Positions 10,887-64,000 of a stretch of 64,000 nucleotides of DNA are shown here, piece by piece. Each line of letters begins with the position of its first letter. Positions within the stretch are counted from its first letter, which is position 1. Below the pieces are notes generated by a model that saw only the letters and a program-made list of their open reading frames with translations, searched no databases and had not been told where the DNA came from. The DNA comes from Crossiella cryophila (GTDB taxonomy: Bacteria; Actinomycetota; Actinomycetes; Mycobacteriales; Pseudonocardiaceae). The position numbers were made by a program, and so were the translations under genes. The stretch is taken from the NCBI RefSeq assembly GCF_014204915.1, contig NZ_JACHMH010000001.1:5295501-5359500 (forward strand), in the 5' to 3' direction.

Positions 10887-12467
10887 TTGAGTGGGAGAAG
10901 ACTGCGTGTCGCCGGGATGGTCTCGGTGGTCGTGGGTGGATTGTTCGCCGGGCTGACCCCGGCGCTGGCCGAACCGGCGGCGGAGGCGCTGAACTCCACG
11001 CACATCCCGGCCCGCTACGCCGCACAGGCACTGGGCTGGCACCCGTGTACGACCGAGGAGCTGCCCGGCACGCCGCCGGGTGAGGTCGGCCTGCTGGAGT
11101 GCGCCACGTTCGCCACGCCGCGGAACTGGGAGCGGCTCTTCGAGCGCGAGGACCTGACCATCGCGGTCAGCAGGCTGCGTGCCACCGGCGTCACCACCGC
11201 CTCGGTGCTGACCAACCCGGGTGGCCCCGGCGGCCCCGGCCGGTCGCTGCCGCTGCACTTCCGCGGCCAGGACCGGCTGCGGGAACACCAGGAGGTCATC
11301 GGCATCGACTCCAGGGGCACCGGCCAGAGCACCAACATCACCTGCGGCGGGATGGCCGGTCCGGCCCCCGAGCTGGACGCGCGCAACCGGGATCCGCGCA
11401 ACCTGGACCTGCTCGTGGACGCGGTGCGGGAGGGCGCCAAGACCTGTCGGCAGGCATCCGGCGAGCTGGGATCGCTGATCAACACCTTCCAGATGACCAA
11501 GGACCTGGACCTGCTGCGGGTGCTGCTGCGCCGGCAGAAGATCAACTGGATCGGGTACTCGGCGGGCACCTGGCTGGGCGCGCACTACGCGCAGCGGTTC
11601 CCGAACCGGGTCGGGCGGTTCGTGCTGGACTCCGCGACCGAGTTCACCGCGAGCTGGCAGCAGTCCTTCGACTGGCAGCCGATGGCCTTCGAGCGGCGCT
11701 GGCGGCAGGACTTCCTGCCCTGGATCGCCCGCTATGAGGCCAAGTACCACTTCGGCGCCACCGGCGAGGCCGCCCGGCAGAACTTCGAGCAGGTGCGGGC
11801 CGCGCTCTCCCGCAAGCCGGTGGAGATCGGCGGGGTGAAGATCTACCCGAGCATGGTGGACAGCCTCATCCTGGGCTCGCTCAAGGAGAAGGCGCAGTTC
11901 CCCACCCTGGCCGAGCGGCTGGTCCAGCTCAGGACGCTGACCGAGCAGGGCGCGTCCACCAGGGCCAAGGCCGCGGCGGAGGGCCCGGTCAAGGAGGCCA
12001 TGGACAAGGTGCGGGCCCAGGCGCCGGACGCGATGCTGGCCACGCTGTGGCACACGCTGTGCAACGACGGTCCGTGGACCGGCGACCGGGAGTCGCTGAT
12101 CCGCCGCTCGCAGCAGCAGTACGACAGCGGCCTGTCCCTCTACGGCGCGGGCTGGATGAGCTTCCAGATCTGCGCGTTCTGGCCGGAGCGGCCGCGGCCG
12201 CTGCCCAAGCTGGACGGCAAGGGCGTGCCGCCGGTGCTGATCGTGCAGGCCGACAAGGACGGCGCCACCGCGATCGAGGGCGCCAGGCGGGCCCGCGCGG
12301 CGTTCCAGAACTCGCGGCTGCTGACTGTCACCGATGAGGGTGACCACGGCATCTACAGCGGCGGCAACGCCAGGGTGGACAAGATCGTCAACGCCTACCT
12401 GGTGGACGGGGTCGTCCCGGCCGATCAGAGCGTGCCCGGTATGCCACTGCCGGTCCCGGCAGGCTAG
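10887..12467 (+). CDS. secreted TAP-like alpha/beta-hydrolase peptidase
   Basis: 526 residues, TTG start with GAGGGGG ahead of it. Signal peptide to about residue 28 (FAGLTPALA). Sequence features match the Streptomyces tripeptidyl-aminopeptidase/SlpD-E family: NPGGPGGPG oxyanion loop, nucleophile elbow IGYSAGTWLG (Ser), Asp in VQADKDGAT and His in DEGDHGIYSG. The C-terminal segment CNDGPWTGD...QICAFW is the TAP-like C-terminal domain. It should release short N-terminal peptides from extracellular proteins. It is followed by a strong hairpin terminator shared with the convergent gene. Confidence 0.88.
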   Translation: MSGRRLRVAGMVSVVVGGLFAGLTPALAEPAAEALNSTHIPARYAAQALGWHPCTTEELPGTPPGEVGLLECATFATPRNWERLFEREDLTIAVSRLRATGVTTASVLTNPGGPGGPGRSLPLHFRGQDRLREHQEVIGIDSRGTGQSTNITCGGMAGPAPELDARNRDPRNLDLLVDAVREGAKTCRQASGELGSLINTFQMTKDLDLLRVLLRRQKINWIGYSAGTWLGAHYAQRFPNRVGRFVLDSATEFTASWQQSFDWQPMAFERRWRQDFLPWIARYEAKYHFGATGEAARQNFEQVRAALSRKPVEIGGVKIYPSMVDSLILGSLKEKAQFPTLAERLVQLRTLTEQGASTRAKAAAEGPVKEAMDKVRAQAPDAMLATLWHTLCNDGPWTGDRESLIRRSQQQYDSGLSLYGAGWMSFQICAFWPERPRPLPKLDGKGVPPVLIVQADKDGATAIEGARRARAAFQNSRLLTVTDEGDHGIYSGGNARVDKIVNAYLVDGVVPADQSVPGMPLPVPAG

Positions 12468-58125: not shown

Positions 58126-58155
58126 CCGCACCACCATTCCCGGAAAGAGGCAGTG

Positions 58156-58524
58156 ATGAGAAGAATGAGCACGCGTGTGCTGACCGTGCTGGCCATGTCG
58201 GCGGTGAGCCTCGGCACGGTCAGTGTCGCACCGGCGTTCGCGATCAACGAGATCGGCGCCCTGGAGTGCAACAACCCGGTCTGGGTGGACAAGTACTTCA
58301 TCATCGGCATCCGGAACAACGACGGCGGTTTCAAGCGCTGCTTCGCCAATGCGGGTGAGCGCTCACTCGACCAGCCCGGCGTGACGAACTTCAGTTCCGG
58401 AAACAACAAGGGCTGGTTCGAGTACGAACCGGGCGACGGCAGCCGCTACCGCCACTCGTTCGGGAAGAACCAGTCCAAGTACCAGCGGTACGGCGCGGTG
58501 GTCAAGATCCACATCGATCGCTGA
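58156..58524 (+). CDS. secreted beta/gamma-crystallin-like protein (killer-toxin-like)
   Basis: 122 residues from ATG 58156 (GTG 58153 in frame). Signal peptide MRRMSTRVLTVLAMSAVSLG to PAFA. Mature start NEIGALECNNPVWVDKYFII matches the 38858 protein. The second half CFANAGERSLDQPGVTNFSS, GNNKGWFEYEPG is a crystallin-type Greek-key pattern as in Streptomyces killer-toxin-like/SMPI-fold proteins. Could be a toxin or protease inhibitor. Thirty bases after the cyclase, so possibly part of that operon; own terminator follows. Confidence 0.7.
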   Translation: MRRMSTRVLTVLAMSAVSLGTVSVAPAFAINEIGALECNNPVWVDKYFIIGIRNNDGGFKRCFANAGERSLDQPGVTNFSSGNNKGWFEYEPGDGSRYRHSFGKNQSKYQRYGAVVKIHIDR

Positions 58525-58534
58525 CCGCGGGGCA

Positions 58535-58572
58535 GGTCGTTCCGGGCGGACCGCGCGCTGCCCGGAACGACC
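58535..58572 (+). terminator. hairpin terminator
   Basis: GGTCGTTCCGGGC (58535-58547), 12-base loop, GCCCGGAACGACC (58560-58572): perfect 13-bp stem. Confidence 0.8.
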
Positions 58573-58752
58573 CATGCCCATCGGTCGAACGCCCAGGTCG
58601 CCGGGTCGCGCTCCGGCGGGTCAGTGCATCTGGGGCACTCTGGTTGCCCACTTGTACCCGGGGCCGCGAGCAACACTTCCACCCCGGCCCGCAAGAGCGC
58701 CTAATGCACTCCCAACATCGATTCGTCGGGTGGAGTGACGGGCGGCGACAGT

Positions 58753-59577
58753 ATGCGGAAACCGGTTGAGCCGAATTCGACGGCTGGTCTTGATTCCGCT
58801 CGCGGTCGTCCCGGTGGAATTGGCCGGGTACTCGCGGCGGTCGCCCTGTGCGCCATGTTGGGCTCCTGCGGCATCAGCGCCACCTCCGAATGGAACGATT
58901 CGGTGCCGGGGGAGCGGTTTCGCGAACGCACCACCATGGACGCGCCGTTCGGGCCGCTCTATCCGGCCGACATCAGGATGCTCATCGCGGTGGCGCAGGC
59001 CGGGTTCTGGGAGATGCCGGCCAGTGAGCTGATGGCCAGGGAGAGCGCCAATCCCAGAGTGCGGGCCGTTGGCGCGCAGCTGGCCAGGGAGCACCACCGG
59101 CTCAACCAGTACAACGAGGCCGCGGCCGCCCGGCTGAACGTGCTGCTGCCCACGAGCGCCACCCCGCAGCAGAACGCCTGGCGCGAGCAGATCCAGGCCG
59201 CCACCGGGGCGGAGCGGGACCGCCGGTACGTCGGGCTGACCAGGGCCGCGCACGGCTCGGTCTACCTGCAGGTCGCCGGTGTCCGGGTGACCACGCAGAA
59301 CGACGTCGTGCGCACCATGGCCCAGCTCGCCGGGGAGTACGTCGCCCGGCACATGACCCTGCTGGAGAGCACCGGACTGGCGGACACCGACTCGCTCGCG
59401 GTGCACTCCGGCACCGATTCCCCGTACCAGCCGGTGCCCTCGCTGGTGTCGGTGCTGGCCGGTGCGGCGCTGGCGCTCGTGCTCGGCTTCGCCACCCTGC
59501 TGCTGGTCCAGCTGGGCTCCCGGCGGCGGGCCGGGGAAGTGGCAGGCGAACCCGCGGTCGGGGGTGCGATCGGATGA
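58753..59577 (+). CDS. DUF4142 lipoprotein with C-terminal membrane anchor
   Basis: 274 residues from ATG 58753 (GTG 58735 also in frame). Lipobox-like CAMLGSC at about 40-46. Central ferritin-like four-helix DUF4142 region: LIAVAQAGFWEMPASELMAR, VRAVGAQLAREHHRLNQYNE, HGSVYLQVAGVRVTTQNDVV, YVARHMTLLESTGL. Then a C-terminal helix LVSVLAGAALALVLGFATLL. Its stop overlaps the next ATG by ATGA. Histidines and Glu on the helices could bind metal or haem; role probably extracytoplasmic sensing or electron transfer with the following genes. Confidence 0.78.
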   Translation: MRKPVEPNSTAGLDSARGRPGGIGRVLAAVALCAMLGSCGISATSEWNDSVPGERFRERTTMDAPFGPLYPADIRMLIAVAQAGFWEMPASELMARESANPRVRAVGAQLAREHHRLNQYNEAAAARLNVLLPTSATPQQNAWREQIQAATGAERDRRYVGLTRAAHGSVYLQVAGVRVTTQNDVVRTMAQLAGEYVARHMTLLESTGLADTDSLAVHSGTDSPYQPVPSLVSVLAGAALALVLGFATLLLVQLGSRRRAGEVAGEPAVGGAIG

Positions 59578-60398
59578 CCGGGGACCTGTTGCTGGCCGCG
59601 GGATTCACCTCCTACGACACCGGGGTGCGTGCGGTCGCCGCGCTGTCCGGGCGGCTGGCCTACCTGTGCATGTGCCTGACCCTGTGCTGGGGCGTGCTGG
59701 TCGCCACCGGCTGGATCCGGCGGGTCACCGGGCATCAGGCACTGCGTACCGGGCACGTCCTGCTGGCCGCCTGCACCCTGGCCACCGCGACCGTGCACGG
59801 CCTGTCGATGCTGCTGCTCGACGAGCAGATCGTGGTCGGCACCCAGGTGGTGATCCCGTTCCTCAACGGCTATGTCCGGCACGCGCTGGGCATCCTCGCC
59901 TTCGACCTGATGGCGATGATCATGCTGACCACCTGGATCCACCGGATCGTCCGCTACCGCACCTGGCTGCGCTTCCACCAGATCGGCTATCTGGTGATCG
60001 CCCTCGGGGTGGTGCATTCCTGGTGGGGCGCATGGGCGAACGCCAACTTCAACCTGCTGTGGCTGGGCGGGATCACCGTGCTGGCCCCCGCGCTCGCGCT
60101 GACCGCGGTGCGGTTCCTGCCCACCAGGGTGCTGGTCCGGATCGGGCTGCTGGCCGCGGACAGCCCGGCGCGGAAGCAGGTGGACAAGGCGGCGCCGCTG
60201 AGCATCAGCGTGGACAACCAGCGTTGCCACCGCTACGGCTTCTGCCAGTCCGAGGCCCCCGAGGTGTTCCGGCTGCGTGAGGACGGACGCCTCGCCTACC
60301 GGCAGAACCCCGAGGTGGAGCACAACCGGGACGTGCTCTCCGCGGCGCGGGCCTGTCCGACGCGTGCGATCGAACTGGAGGCGGGCAAACGTGACTGA
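59574..60398 (+). CDS. ferric-reductase-like membrane domain fused to a 3Fe-4S-type ferredoxin
   Basis: 274 residues. Residues 1-190: five to six helices with paired His (LATATVHGLSMLL, YVRHALGILAF, LRFHQIGYLVIALGVVHSWW) that could hold two haems as in ferric reductases. Residues ~205-270: ferredoxin ISVDNQRCHRYGFCQSEAPE then ARACPTRAIELEAGK, a C-x5-C...C arrangement of single-cluster (3Fe-4S or 4Fe-4S) actinobacterial ferredoxins. Fusion of the two in one short protein is unusual. Overlaps the ferredoxin reductase by 8 bases. Confidence 0.82.
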   Translation: MTGDLLLAAGFTSYDTGVRAVAALSGRLAYLCMCLTLCWGVLVATGWIRRVTGHQALRTGHVLLAACTLATATVHGLSMLLLDEQIVVGTQVVIPFLNGYVRHALGILAFDLMAMIMLTTWIHRIVRYRTWLRFHQIGYLVIALGVVHSWWGAWANANFNLLWLGGITVLAPALALTAVRFLPTRVLVRIGLLAADSPARKQVDKAAPLSISVDNQRCHRYGFCQSEAPEVFRLREDGRLAYRQNPEVEHNRDVLSAARACPTRAIELEAGKRD

Positions 60399-61656
60399 GC
60401 TGCCACGAATCGTCATCGCCGGGGCAGGCCTGGCCGGGATGTGCGCCGCGGAACGGTTGCGGGAACTGGGTTTCGACGGCGAGATCGTCATCCTCGGCGC
60501 GGAACCGGGCCTGCCGACCTACCGGCCAGCCCTGACCAAACAGTTCCTCAGCGGTGAGTTCCACGAGCGGGACCTGGTGATCGCGCCCGCGCACCAGCTC
60601 GACGTGGTGTGGCGGTTCAACACCCCGGTGTACCGGCTGGATCCGTCCCGGCGACTGGTGTTCCTGCCCGGTGGCGAGGTGCTCGACTACGACGGGCTGG
60701 TCATCGCCAGCGGGGTCGAGGCCCGCAGGCTGCCCACCGGGATCCACGGCCACCCCAGGGTCACCGTGCTGCGCACCATCGCCGACGCCGCCAGGGTGCG
60801 CACGGCGCTGACGAACGTGCGCGAGCAGGTGGCGGTGATCGGCAGTGGCTTCATCGGCTGCGAGCTGGCCGCCGGCCTGCGCGCGATGGGCCACCAGGTC
60901 ACCATCGTCGGCCGGTCACCCCGGCTGATGGGCGACCTGCTCGACGACGAGCTGGGCACCCGGCTGACCGAGCTGCACCGGCGCAAGGGCGTGCGGCTCC
61001 AGCTCGGCACCGAGGTGGCGGGCTGGGCGGCGCGACCGGCAGCGGTCCAGCTGCGGTTGTCCAACGGGCGCGTGCTGTCCGCCGACCACGTGGTGGTGGC
61101 GGTCGGCTCGGTCCCCGCGGTCTCCTGGCTGCGGGACTCGGGGGCGGACCTGGCCGACGGTGTGGGGTGCGAGCCGAGCTGCCACGTGGCCGGGCTGGCC
61201 GACGTGGTGGCCGCCGGGGACGTCGCGAGCTGGCCCAACCTGCGCTTCGGCGGGCAGGCCGGCCGGGTCGAGCACTGGACCAACGCGATGGAGATGGGCC
61301 GGGCCGCGGCGGAGAGCCTGCTCAGCGGACGGGAAGGGGCGCTGCCTTACACGCCGGTGCCGCGGTTCTGGTCCGAGCAGTTCGGCCTGCAGATCCAGGC
61401 GGCCGGGATGCCGGCGCTGGGCCCGGTGCGCCGGGCGATGGACCCGGAAACCCCCGGCGGCCACACGGTTTCCGGGTTCTTCCTGGCCGACCGGCTCACC
61501 GGCGTCGTCGGCTTCGACAACACCCCCGCGGTGCTGCGGCACACCGCCGAACTGCGCAGGCGGGTGGCCACCGGCGGGCACCGGATCCCACCGCCCGCCA
61601 GGGATCGGGTGCCCGTCGGCCTGGACCCGCCGCTGTCCAGGGCGGTGCGGGCGTGA
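60391..61656 (+). CDS. NAD(P)H-ferredoxin reductase (FAD pyridine nucleotide-disulfide family)
   Basis: 421 residues, GTG start with GGAGG upstream. FAD motif RIVIAGAGLAGMCAAERLRE, NAD motif VAVIGSGFIGCELAAGLRAM, ATG-like YDGLVIASGVEARRL, VVAAGDVASWPN. Matches P450/dioxygenase ferredoxin reductases. Presumably reduces the fused ferredoxin just upstream. Could also serve the 39.2 kb P450. Confidence 0.9.
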   Translation: MTELPRIVIAGAGLAGMCAAERLRELGFDGEIVILGAEPGLPTYRPALTKQFLSGEFHERDLVIAPAHQLDVVWRFNTPVYRLDPSRRLVFLPGGEVLDYDGLVIASGVEARRLPTGIHGHPRVTVLRTIADAARVRTALTNVREQVAVIGSGFIGCELAAGLRAMGHQVTIVGRSPRLMGDLLDDELGTRLTELHRRKGVRLQLGTEVAGWAARPAAVQLRLSNGRVLSADHVVVAVGSVPAVSWLRDSGADLADGVGCEPSCHVAGLADVVAAGDVASWPNLRFGGQAGRVEHWTNAMEMGRAAAESLLSGREGALPYTPVPRFWSEQFGLQIQAAGMPALGPVRRAMDPETPGGHTVSGFFLADRLTGVVGFDNTPAVLRHTAELRRRVATGGHRIPPPARDRVPVGLDPPLSRAVRA

Positions 61657-61689
61657 TGCGGATCCTGACGGACCGGAAAGGACCACGGA

Positions 61690-61938
61690 ATGCGACCGAA
61701 CGTGCTCGCGATCTTCTCGCTCGTCGCACTGGCCGCGGCTGCCGCGATCGCGGTCCAGCAGTCCCCGAACCTCACCTCGCGGACGGCCGGGATCTCCGTG
61801 CTCGTCACCGAGGACCCGCACTACCAGTCCGCCACCGTGCCGCTGCCCTACCGGGAGCGGGCCCGGATCGCGCGGGCGCCCGCACCCGAGGAGCTGCTCG
61901 TGCCCGCGGCCGCGCACCCGCACCAGGGGGAGCGGTGA
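61690..61938 (+). CDS. small membrane-anchored/secreted protein in the redox operon
   Basis: 82 residues, GAAAGGA before ATG. One N-terminal hydrophobic helix (MRPNVLAIFSLVALAAAAAI), then an extended polar tail (VLVTEDPHYQSATVPLPYRE) ending in His/Pro/Glu-rich residues. No family. One-base stop/start overlap with DUF742 (TGATG) supports it as a real operon member. Confidence 0.65.
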   Translation: MRPNVLAIFSLVALAAAAAIAVQQSPNLTSRTAGISVLVTEDPHYQSATVPLPYRERARIARAPAPEELLVPAAAHPHQGER

Positions 61939-62600
61939 TGCGTGGCGGCCGGGCGGTCGCGCCGCCGGGGGAACGGCCGGACGGGATGGAGCCGGTCCGC
62001 TTCGGCGGCTGGTCGGACTACGGGGAGTGGGCCGACCACGACTTCCGCGACCGGTCACCGTCGGAGGAAGCGGGGCCGGGCGGCGGCAGGCCGGTCGTGG
62101 TCGAGGCGCTGACCGAGGTGACCCCGATCAGGGTGCCGGCCGAGACCGACGCGGAGTCGGGCACCCGGCGGTCCTGCCGGATCGCCCCGGCGGCCGAGCA
62201 CGAGGACGGGATCCGGTTCGAGGCAGGCGATCTGACCCTCGACCTGGATCGCACGGCCCAGCTCATCCGGCCCTACGTCCGCTCCGGCGGCCGCTCGGAG
62301 TCCAGCCACGAGCTGGAGTTCGAGACCATGATCGCCGCCGCCCGGCCCTACGCCACCCTGCCACTGCGGGAGATGAGCGCGGACGAGCGGCTGGTGTGCC
62401 GCACCTGCGCGCTGCCGCAGTCGGTGGCCGAGATCGCGGTGGCCATCGAGGCGCCGCTCGGCCTGGCCCGCACGATCATCAGCGACGGCATCGACAAGGG
62501 ATACCTGCTGGTGCACAGCATCTCGGGCCCGACAACCGGCGGCCTGCCCTCGCTGGAGCTGCTGCGGCGCCTCTACGCCGGACTCGCCCGGCTGATCTGA
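61938..62600 (+). CDS. DUF742 protein (conservon CvnC-like)
   Basis: 220 residues. The C-terminal ~115 residues are DUF742: TAQLIRPYVRSGGRSESSHE, LEFETMIAA, CRTCALPQSVAEIAVAIEAP, LGLARTIISDGIDKGYLLVH. DUF742 proteins form the third member of actinobacterial conservons (kinase, roadblock, DUF742, GTPase). The N-terminal ~100 residues are an acidic low-complexity extension longer than usual. No roadblock gene lies upstream; redox genes do. Confidence 0.88.
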   Translation: MRGGRAVAPPGERPDGMEPVRFGGWSDYGEWADHDFRDRSPSEEAGPGGGRPVVVEALTEVTPIRVPAETDAESGTRRSCRIAPAAEHEDGIRFEAGDLTLDLDRTAQLIRPYVRSGGRSESSHELEFETMIAAARPYATLPLREMSADERLVCRTCALPQSVAEIAVAIEAPLGLARTIISDGIDKGYLLVHSISGPTTGGLPSLELLRRLYAGLARLI

Positions 62601-62623
62601 ACCCCACGGCTGACGGAGGCACG

Positions 62624-64000
62624 ATGAACAGAGACCAGGCGCGAGGACAGGGCAGGCTGCTGCTGCTCGCCTTCGTCCTGCTGTGCGCCCTGCAGTTCGC
62701 CACCGTGGCCGCCGCCGCGTCCGGGACTCCCTGGTCGCGCTGGATCGCGCCGGCCGTCGGTGTGGGCTCCCTGCTGCTGGGCGCGCTGATAGCCGTTGGC
62801 GCGCGGCGGTTGTGGCACTCGATGGACACCCTGCGCGCCGAGGTGGACGAACTGTCCGCGCGCCGGCTCTCCGAGATCGTGGGCGAGGTCGTGGACGGGC
62901 GGGATCCCGAACGCGTCGGCCTGGAGCTGCCCAACCCCACCGACGGCAAGCTGGCCATGCTCATCGACGACGTCCGGCAGGTCTGCACGCACGCGGTGCA
63001 GCTGGCCACCAAACACGACGAGATCCGCTCCGGCTACTCCGAGGTCTTCGTCACCATGTTCCGGCGCACCCAGTCCCTGCTGCTCCGCCAGCTGCAGATC
63101 ATCGAACAGCTGGAGGCTGGCGACCGCAGCTCGACCGACCTGAACCGGCTGTTCCAGCTCGACCACCTGGTCACCAGGATGCGGCGCAACAACGAGAACA
63201 TCCTGCTGCTCTCCGGCACCGAACTGGTCCGCAAGACCAAGGAGCCGGTCCCGGTCGGCGACCTGCTGCGCGCGGCGATCTCGGAGATCGGCTCCTACCA
63301 ACGGGTCCGGATGCTCGACACCCCGGCGGTGCGGGTGTCCAACACCGCGGCCGGTGACCTGATCCGGATCGTGGCCGAGCTGCTGGACAACGCCACCTCC
63401 TTCTCCGCACCCGACCAGCAGGTCACCGTCAAGGCCGAACTGGGCCGCCACCACGGCCTCTCGATCGGGGTGTTCGACAACGGGATCGGCATGTCCGATG
63501 AGGACCTGGACCGGGTGAACCGGCAGCTGCGGCGGCTGGGCTCGGAGGAGATCGCGCGCACCCGCCGGGTCGGGCTGCTCGTGGTCGGCAGGCTGGCTGG
63601 CAAGTACGGGATCCGGGTGGAACTCTTCGGCGGCAACACCGTCACCGGGGTCTCGGCGCTGATCACCGTGCCGAGTTCGGCGTTGCTGGAGGAGGACGAG
63701 GTGCGGGCCGCGCTGCCCGGCGATCCGCGCCGGGGCCTGACCCAGGGCGCGGGCGGCGTGCCGGCGGAACGGCCGGACGCCGCGGTGCTGGTGACCACCA
63801 CGCTGCGGCGGGCCGAGTCCGAGGCGAGAACGCCGGTGCGGGCCAGTTCCCGGCGGCAGTCCTCCTGGTACAGCAGGTCCAGGACGCCGGTGCGGGCGGG
63901 CCAGGCGTGGCGGGATTCCGCCGAGGTGGTCGCCAAGGTGCACGCGGGAGTCTCCGGTGAGCTGCCGATCCGGGTGCCCCAGCGGGCCGCGCCGGAGTCA
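62624..64000 (+). CDS. conservon-type (CvnA-like) histidine kinase, 3' end cut by window
   Basis: 459 codons from ATG 62624 to the window end without a stop. Two helices (about 10-32 and 41-61) enclose only a few residues, so the large extracellular nitrate-sensor-like domain of typical CvnA is missing. The cytoplasmic HAMP-like region leads to LFQLDHLVTRMRRNNENILL (His181), then HATPase motifs AELLDNATSFSAPDQQV and GVFDNGIGMSDEDL. Follows DUF742 by 23 bases; the usual conservon order (kinase first) is reversed here. Roadblock and GTPase genes may lie beyond the edge. Confidence 0.87.
   Translation, partial: MNRDQARGQGRLLLLAFVLLCALQFATVAAAASGTPWSRWIAPAVGVGSLLLGALIAVGARRLWHSMDTLRAEVDELSARRLSEIVGEVVDGRDPERVGLELPNPTDGKLAMLIDDVRQVCTHAVQLATKHDEIRSGYSEVFVTMFRRTQSLLLRQLQIIEQLEAGDRSSTDLNRLFQLDHLVTRMRRNNENILLLSGTELVRKTKEPVPVGDLLRAAISEIGSYQRVRMLDTPAVRVSNTAAGDLIRIVAELLDNATSFSAPDQQVTVKAELGRHHGLSIGVFDNGIGMSDEDLDRVNRQLRRLGSEEIARTRRVGLLVVGRLAGKYGIRVELFGGNTVTGVSALITVPSSALLEEDEVRAALPGDPRRGLTQGAGGVPAERPDAAVLVTTTLRRAESEARTPVRASSRRQSSWYSRSRTPVRAGQAWRDSAEVVAKVHAGVSGELPIRVPQRAAPES

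Follow-up and report, generated by a model that had tools for sequence, protein, structure and literature searches.

A redox module joined to a conservon with a sensorless CvnA-type kinase in Crossiella cryophila

What does a conservon sense, and how does a signal enter a CvnA-type kinase that has no outer domain? Both questions are raised by a locus of Crossiella cryophila (RefSeq assembly GCF_014204915.1, contig NZ_JACHMH010000001.1), which starts within a stretch of 64,000 nucleotides, here called the window (G000:C1:5295501-5359500 of a 10.06-Mb single-contig genome), and continues past its end. Judged by its domains and gene order, the locus is a conservon, or AGPS, in which the DUF742 gene has moved before the kinase gene and redox genes stand on the flanks. 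The linkage of the redox genes and the conservon is well supported by comparison of related loci. Our preferred reading, to which we give slightly less than even confidence, is that the redox chain may be the input, its redox state or electron flux setting the activity of the sensorless kinase. The unit suggests that signals may enter or leave bacterial Ras-like switches by a route of a new type.

Gene content and layout of the unit

Six genes of the unit lie on the + strand in the window, with the domains (Pfam) that a preceding reading, made from the window sequence only, had assigned to them. This sequence-only reading had described the genes as running with overlaps or short gaps, and neighbors in the window indeed overlap by 4, 8, or 1 nt or are separated by 33 or 23 nt. 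It had also raised the possibility that roadblock and GTPase genes follow past position 64000; both are present in the same genome and are followed by genes for a thioredoxin and a peroxiredoxin. These four additional genes bring the unit to ten same-strand genes, with no more than 33 nt between neighbors wherever they do not overlap. Coordinates past the window correspond to positions in L007, a stretch of the window genome, plus 57000.

58753-59577, + strand: DUF4142 protein (PF13628, E 2.3e-12; GTG at 58735 is an alternative start)
59574-60398, + strand: Ferric_reduct and ferredoxin fusion (PF01794 and PF13370)
60391-61656, + strand: FAD-dependent ferredoxin reductase (Pyr_redox_2, E 3e-51)
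61690-61938, + strand: 82-aa protein with an N-terminal hydrophobic helix, matching no Pfam or NCBIfam family
61938-62600, + strand: DUF742 protein, CvnC-type (PF05331, E 1.6e-18)
62624-64444, + strand (window ends at 64000): CvnA-type kinase without outer sensor (HATPase_c, E 7.6e-11)
64444-64887, + strand (past the window): roadblock protein (Robl_LC7, E 4.8e-18)
64916-65527, + strand (past the window): Ras-like GTPase (ATP_bind_1, E 7.8e-30)
65553-65933, + strand (past the window; TTG start at 65544 possible): thioredoxin (Thioredoxin, E 8.6e-19)
65933-66481, + strand (past the window): peroxiredoxin (AhpC-TSA, E 7.3e-39)
58535-58572, + strand: G+C-rich hairpin without a T-run, directly after the preceding gene (predicted fold)

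The four conservon genes are contiguous, and the HATPase_c, Robl_LC7, DUF742, and ATP_bind_1 models all score over their cut-offs; the Ras model itself falls under its cut-off (20.0 versus 21.6 bits). The overlaps and short gaps leave little room for internal signals. A split of the genes by a promoter and terminator, which the sequence-only reading had named as evidence against functional linkage, was not found: a sigma-70-type scan of the operon gave no promoter, and a terminator scan gave three hits where 3.3 are expected by chance. Based on this layout, the ten genes probably form one transcript. The hairpin upstream is a probable operon boundary that would separate the unit from the gene before it; the predicted fold of 58525-58585 has an energy of -45.1 kcal/mol (z -5.08), and none of 200 shuffles was as good.

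Conservation and inheritance of the unit

Searching the order with the fusion protein gave matches at 37 places in 26 of 298 genomes. The main sample consists of 46 distinct loci, namely 21 of these 37 places, 22 of 23 named loci (the 23rd being a duplicate contig), and three loci from a search with DUF742; the remaining 16 fusion places form a second sample. L076, L100-L102, and L104-L106 each share a contig with a counted locus and were therefore excluded. Of the 46 loci, 13 (L007, L043, L063-L069, L081, L103, L107, and L108) have genes for DUF4142, fusion, reductase, DUF742, kinase, roadblock, and GTPase in that order. These redox conservons come from four genera (Crossiella, Amycolatopsis, Saccharothrix, and Kribbella) in two families, and such conservation of order indicates that the association is not due to chance. 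All ten genes are found in eight of the 13; the peroxiredoxin is missing from L069 and L081, and from L068, L107, and L108 the thioredoxin is missing as well. The small membrane protein was recognized in nine of the 13. Its position-equivalents in L068, L069, and L081 are 148-172 aa long, the length in seven sensorless loci being 82-136 aa; as the profile does not recognize them, we attach no meaning to the difference.

The placing of DUF742 before the kinase, which had already been pointed out from the window alone, is shared by all 13 redox loci and by none of ten ordinary conservons with all four genes, which without exception have the canonical order kinase, roadblock, DUF742, GTPase. An N-terminal DUF742 motif, GGWxxYxEWAxxDFRxR, is invariant across ten aligned redox loci. 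Redox-type DUF742 genes (E up to 1e-40) occur in 14 of 390 genomes of the family, 11 of them in conservons and three solitary, and all 11 that lie in a conservon are accompanied by the redox trio. Hence, a separation of redox genes from DUF742 and kinase in relatives, which the sequence-only reading had held would make linkage unlikely, is not seen within the redox-DUF742 clade. The co-occurrence of DUF4142, fusion, and DUF742 that it had proposed to survey holds from the side of DUF742 (these same 11 of 11) and not from the side of the fusion, as most fusion loci have no conservon (29 of 33 and 8 of 16 are linked to a sigma factor, as described later). The unit is rare, as only one of 394 genomes in a class-wide sample, the window's own, has a redox-type DUF742; within the window's own genus, two of five genomes in the DUF742 search carry the unit. 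The solitary DUF742 genes (L109, L110, and L111) have a similar N-terminal motif, GW..YQ.WA.HDF, and no conservon genes were recognized around them.

Seven gene trees (FastTree) pairwise share 6-10 of 10 splits, compared with a mean of 0.34 and a maximum of 3 after label shuffling; fusion and DUF742 have 10 of 10 splits in common, and fusion and kinase 9 of 10. In all seven trees, the locus of Kribbella antibiotica (Kribbellaceae, a family of another order) falls together with two loci of the genus Saccharothrix, those of S. carnea and L107. Among 38 Kribbella genomes, no other has a redox-type DUF742 at E up to 1e-35. Given the largely congruent trees and this sole Kribbella carrier, whole-block transfer is the simplest reading, and the unit seems to travel as a block.

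One or two LuxR-type regulator genes follow some redox conservons (L066:17374-18746 and L108:10638-11904; such genes also lie downstream in L043, L064, L065, and L103). The GerE domain was confirmed with Pfam in both regulators of L066, and the counterpart in the window genome (L007:10069-10542) has no Pfam match. These regulators are candidate outputs of the redox conservons.

The redox proteins and the sensorless kinase

The membrane part of the fusion scores over the Ferric_reduct cut-off and contains four putative heme histidines, H61/H75 and H135/H148, the patterns H-x13-H and H-x12-H being present in all 46 distinct fusions. Their spacings, 14 and 13, equal those of the NOX2 heme ligands, given as H101/H115 and H209/H222 in the available part of PMC3591440. 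In these respects the fusion resembles the NOX/ferric reductase superfamily (e.g., SpNOX), but a ferredoxin replaces the C-terminal FAD/NADPH dehydrogenase domain and the FAD reductase is encoded by a separate gene. Structural comparison with Foldseek gave weak matches of the membrane part to SpNOX and NOX5 (model mean pLDDT 73.8). The C terminus of the fusion is a C-x5-C...CP ferredoxin, probably of the [3Fe-4S] type, that matches solved ferredoxins, several of them cytochrome P450 partners. It shares this motif and sequence similarity with P450-type ferredoxins such as M. tuberculosis FdxE and the ferredoxin part of a CYP51 chain (PDB 6mcw), which differ in that here the ferredoxin is fused to a heme membrane domain and the operon has no P450; no P450 or GAF family was found by Pfam among the ten operon proteins.

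The DUF4142 protein has a lipobox-like LGSC and a C-terminal hydrophobic helix and models as a ferritin-like helical bundle (AlphaFold2, mean pLDDT 80.8), with weak Foldseek matches to DUF305, YciF, CopM, and others (best E 2.7e-3); at E 0.001, neither this model nor that of the fusion has a match. D73, H200, and E205 are the sole invariant candidate metal ligands in 33 DUF4142 sequences, and no site could be named from them. The reductase resembles the ferredoxin reductases of dioxygenase and P450 systems; its solved relatives include dioxygenase ferredoxin reductases and putidaredoxin reductase. The thioredoxin carries WCGPC, and CxxC is present in all ten thioredoxins of redox loci. For the peroxiredoxin, the best solved matches are chains of M. 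tuberculosis Rv2238c, presumably AhpE, and its second cysteine lies five residues after the first (C-x4-C in 8 of 8). Based on these protein families, the FAD reductase would hand electrons from NAD(P)H to the cytoplasmic Fe-S ferredoxin domain of the fusion, from which they would cross two b hemes to an acceptor outside the cell, with the anchored, ferritin-like DUF4142 protein sitting at the outer face.

The window kinase was described earlier as lacking an external sensor, and its predicted helices (residues 12-30 and 41-59, from hydropathy) are separated by 10 residues, which leaves no room for an outer domain. By the same measure, 3-12 residues lie between the helices in nine of the 13 redox kinases and 132-268 in the other four, whereas the eight ordinary kinases measured have 256-331 (8 of 11; L011, L129, and L134 were dropped because the motif pattern missed them). 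A NIT domain scores over the Pfam cut-off in L068, L069, and L081, and none was found in L108. The idea that the electron-transfer chain takes the position of the sensor therefore fits the nine loci with a sensorless kinase and fails in the four that have both the chain and a large outer region, so that the chain does not simply replace the sensor. Within the redox clade (100/100), the nine sensorless kinases fall into a single clade of their own (100/100), and this nesting suggests that sensor loss probably came later than the union of redox genes and conservon.

Conservons whose CvnA has no outer sensor have been described, in the available part of PMC13343842, as being accompanied by accessory genes for CvnE (P450) or CvnF (GAF). 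The same part reports that CvnF8 binds CvnA8 and stimulates its ATPase activity and autophosphorylation, that relatives of roadblock proteins act as GTPase-activating proteins (GAPs), and that DUF742 relatives are likely guanine nucleotide exchange factors (GEFs). According to the available part of PMC8510531, CvnA7-13 have under 20 residues between their helices, and conservons 9-12 carry P450 genes. The present unit is like these CvnE- and CvnF-bearing systems in combining a CvnA-type kinase, roadblock protein, DUF742, and Ras-like GTPase, and in having extra genes beside a sensorless kinase. It is unlike them in the placing of DUF742 before the kinase, in having ten genes rather than five, and in its extras, which are an electron-transfer chain, thioredoxin, and peroxiredoxin instead of GAF or P450 proteins. 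A redox chain on a sensorless kinase would fit as a third type of AGPS accessory beside P450 and GAF. The PMC13343842 text that was searched contains none of the terms ferredoxin, thioredoxin, and reductase. Among the listed open-access matches on conservons, DUF4142, and ferric reductase, a search that left most subscription papers outside, no title or abstract beginning describes the unit.

Change of partner and direction of signaling

Of the 33 main-sample loci without a conservon, 29 have a divergent extracytoplasmic function (ECF) sigma factor gene within about 2.7 kb of the redox genes. Among these 29 loci, a zinc-finger anti-sigma gene is found in 28 (not in L051), DUF4142 in 28 (the exception being L060), and the reductase in 28 (the contig of L079 ends first); the identities of sigma and anti-sigma were confirmed in L055 against Pfam and NCBIfam. 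L057, L059, L083, and L084 have neither a conservon nor a sigma/anti-sigma pair. The order of DUF4142, fusion, and reductase in the ECF loci, from Amycolatopsis and others, is that of the redox conservons. These loci differ in their regulator, a sigma pair on the opposite strand, and in a promoter-like element that the conservon version lacks. None of the 13 conservon loci adjoins an ECF gene; L107 has one 9.4 kb off, on the far side.

This element, GAACC-N-CGTA, is present in eight of nine groups of ECF loci, where shuffles reach at most five; it was searched for by group since related Amycolatopsis sequences dominated an ungrouped search. The strict form GAACC-N15/17-CGTA is aimed at the redox genes in 28 of the 29 ECF loci (L044 being the miss) and in none of the 13 conservon loci, its background density over all these loci being 0.028 per kb and strand. 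Since the ECF loci themselves served to define the element, the controls are the shuffles and the 13 conservon loci. We take it to resemble mycobacterial SigL promoters. The anti-sigma factor of SigL, RslA, is a redox-sensitive zinc protein, as stated in the available part of PMC2877774.

The second sample is a partial independent test, since many of its members are close relatives of main-sample loci. None of its 16 places has a conservon; at eight, a divergent sigma/anti-sigma pair is encoded no more than about 2.4 kb away, and all eight have the element. In four (L160-L163) the pair is 6.4-6.6 kb upstream of the fusion gene, with the element closer to it at about 1.5-1.7 kb; in these loci DUF4142 lies about 2.7 kb from the fusion with other genes between, a looser form of the neighborhood. 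The last four have no pair, and one of them, L158, still has the element. L146 and L147 contain fusion-like and reductase genes with neither partner system within the stretch examined. Upstream of the conservon version, the best word pair occurs in 5 of 13 loci, where shuffles reach 4-5, and aligning the upstream regions of all but one locus (12 regions, without L103) revealed no common element. In the fusion tree of 46, which is midpoint rooted and whose bootstrap is not fully settled, a single branch (100/99; present in 100% of 200 bootstrap trees) sets apart the 13 conservon loci, which lie among ECF-linked ones. By parsimony, the redox module would have gone from an ECF sigma partner to a conservon partner.

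Sequence comparison shows the parts, the operon layout, the inheritance as a block, and the two alternative partners (sigma pair or conservon). That the partner changed first and the sensor was lost later is inferred, as are the electron path, the cofactors, the direction of signaling, and the output. In the input reading, redox state or electron flux, perhaps read through thioredoxin and peroxiredoxin, would set the activity of the sensorless CvnA kinase, giving the chain a role like that of CvnF8, the accessory protein that activates CvnA8, and the kinase would shift the GTPase between its GDP and GTP forms via the GAP-like roadblock protein and the GEF-like DUF742. The probable loss of the sensor after the union favors an input role of the chain, like the one published for CvnF8. 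The ten contiguous genes, the order kept in all 13 loci, the agreement of the trees, the sole Kribbella carrier, the published accessory proteins of sensorless CvnA, the heme-histidine spacing, and the conserved thioredoxin and peroxiredoxin cysteines also speak for this reading. The more specific proposal that a NOX-like, ferredoxin-fed transmembrane chain is the sensor of a Ras-like GTPase, with a thioredoxin/peroxiredoxin readout, after a conservon captured an ECF-controlled redox module, is possible rather than probable. Several observations weigh against the chain as input. Redox genes occur oftener without a conservon, mostly beside an ECF sigma gene, where they look like the regulated output of the sigma factor; in 4 of 13 loci they stand alongside a large outer kinase region; and neither peroxiredoxin (absent from five redox loci) nor thioredoxin (also absent from three of these) is essential to the unit. 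A thiol relay was considered and rejected, the redox-clade cysteines in DUF742, roadblock protein, and kinase being few and weakly enriched (3 of the 94 positions specific to the clade; P 0.035, without correction and from one clade).

The sigma-target look of the redox genes elsewhere favors the reverse direction, in which chain, thioredoxin, and peroxiredoxin would be stress effectors under G-protein control and the conservon would have replaced the ECF sigma/anti-sigma regulator. The divergent ECF gene at 29 of 46 fusion loci, with its frequent anti-sigma and DUF4142 companions (each 28 of 29), points this way, as do the element in 28 of 29 and 8 of 8 further ECF loci versus 0 of 13 conservon loci and the LuxR-type regulators after some redox conservons. 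However, a common transcript does not itself give control, the conservon version has no shared promoter motif upstream, and the loss of the kinase's outer sensor is left unexplained; we regard control of the chain by the conservon as a serious but somewhat improbable alternative. A feedback loop, with the chain both controlled by and reporting to the G-protein system, would draw on the same facts and on the block inheritance of all parts, but nothing here separates it from the one-way readings, and we consider it unlikely. The resemblance of the ferredoxin domain to P450 ferredoxins would suit mere co-expression, with the redox genes serving general metabolism (e.g., ferric reduction or P450) from a promoter in common and having no signaling relation; this is quite improbable given the same order in 13 of 13 loci, the largely congruent trees, the apparent transfer of the whole unit, and the absence of any P450 family from the operon's products. 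That redox genes can stand without a conservon would suit a misreading of chance neighbors as a unit, an explanation that conserved order and gene trees contradict and that is almost certainly wrong. Sigma pair, sensor-bearing kinase, and sensorless kinase are each found beside this one set of redox genes, a natural series that makes the input question directly testable in cultured actinomycetes.

The window genome has two further fusion-type loci, G000:C1:8081623-8082447 (L051) and 8991984-8992577 (L060), each with an ECF sigma gene next to it; in L060 there is no match to DUF4142, and the profile match is confined to the membrane part. A secreted-repeat lipoprotein gene lies between the ECF sigma gene and DUF4142 in L047, L049, L051, L054, L055, L056, L058, L061, and L062; its Lipoprotein_15 identity was confirmed in L055 (Pfam), and it may belong to the same pathway as the redox genes. 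Around the operon itself, small proteins with signal-peptide-like N termini are encoded on both flanks (58153-58524 in the window; L007:11069-11515 and 11583-11987).

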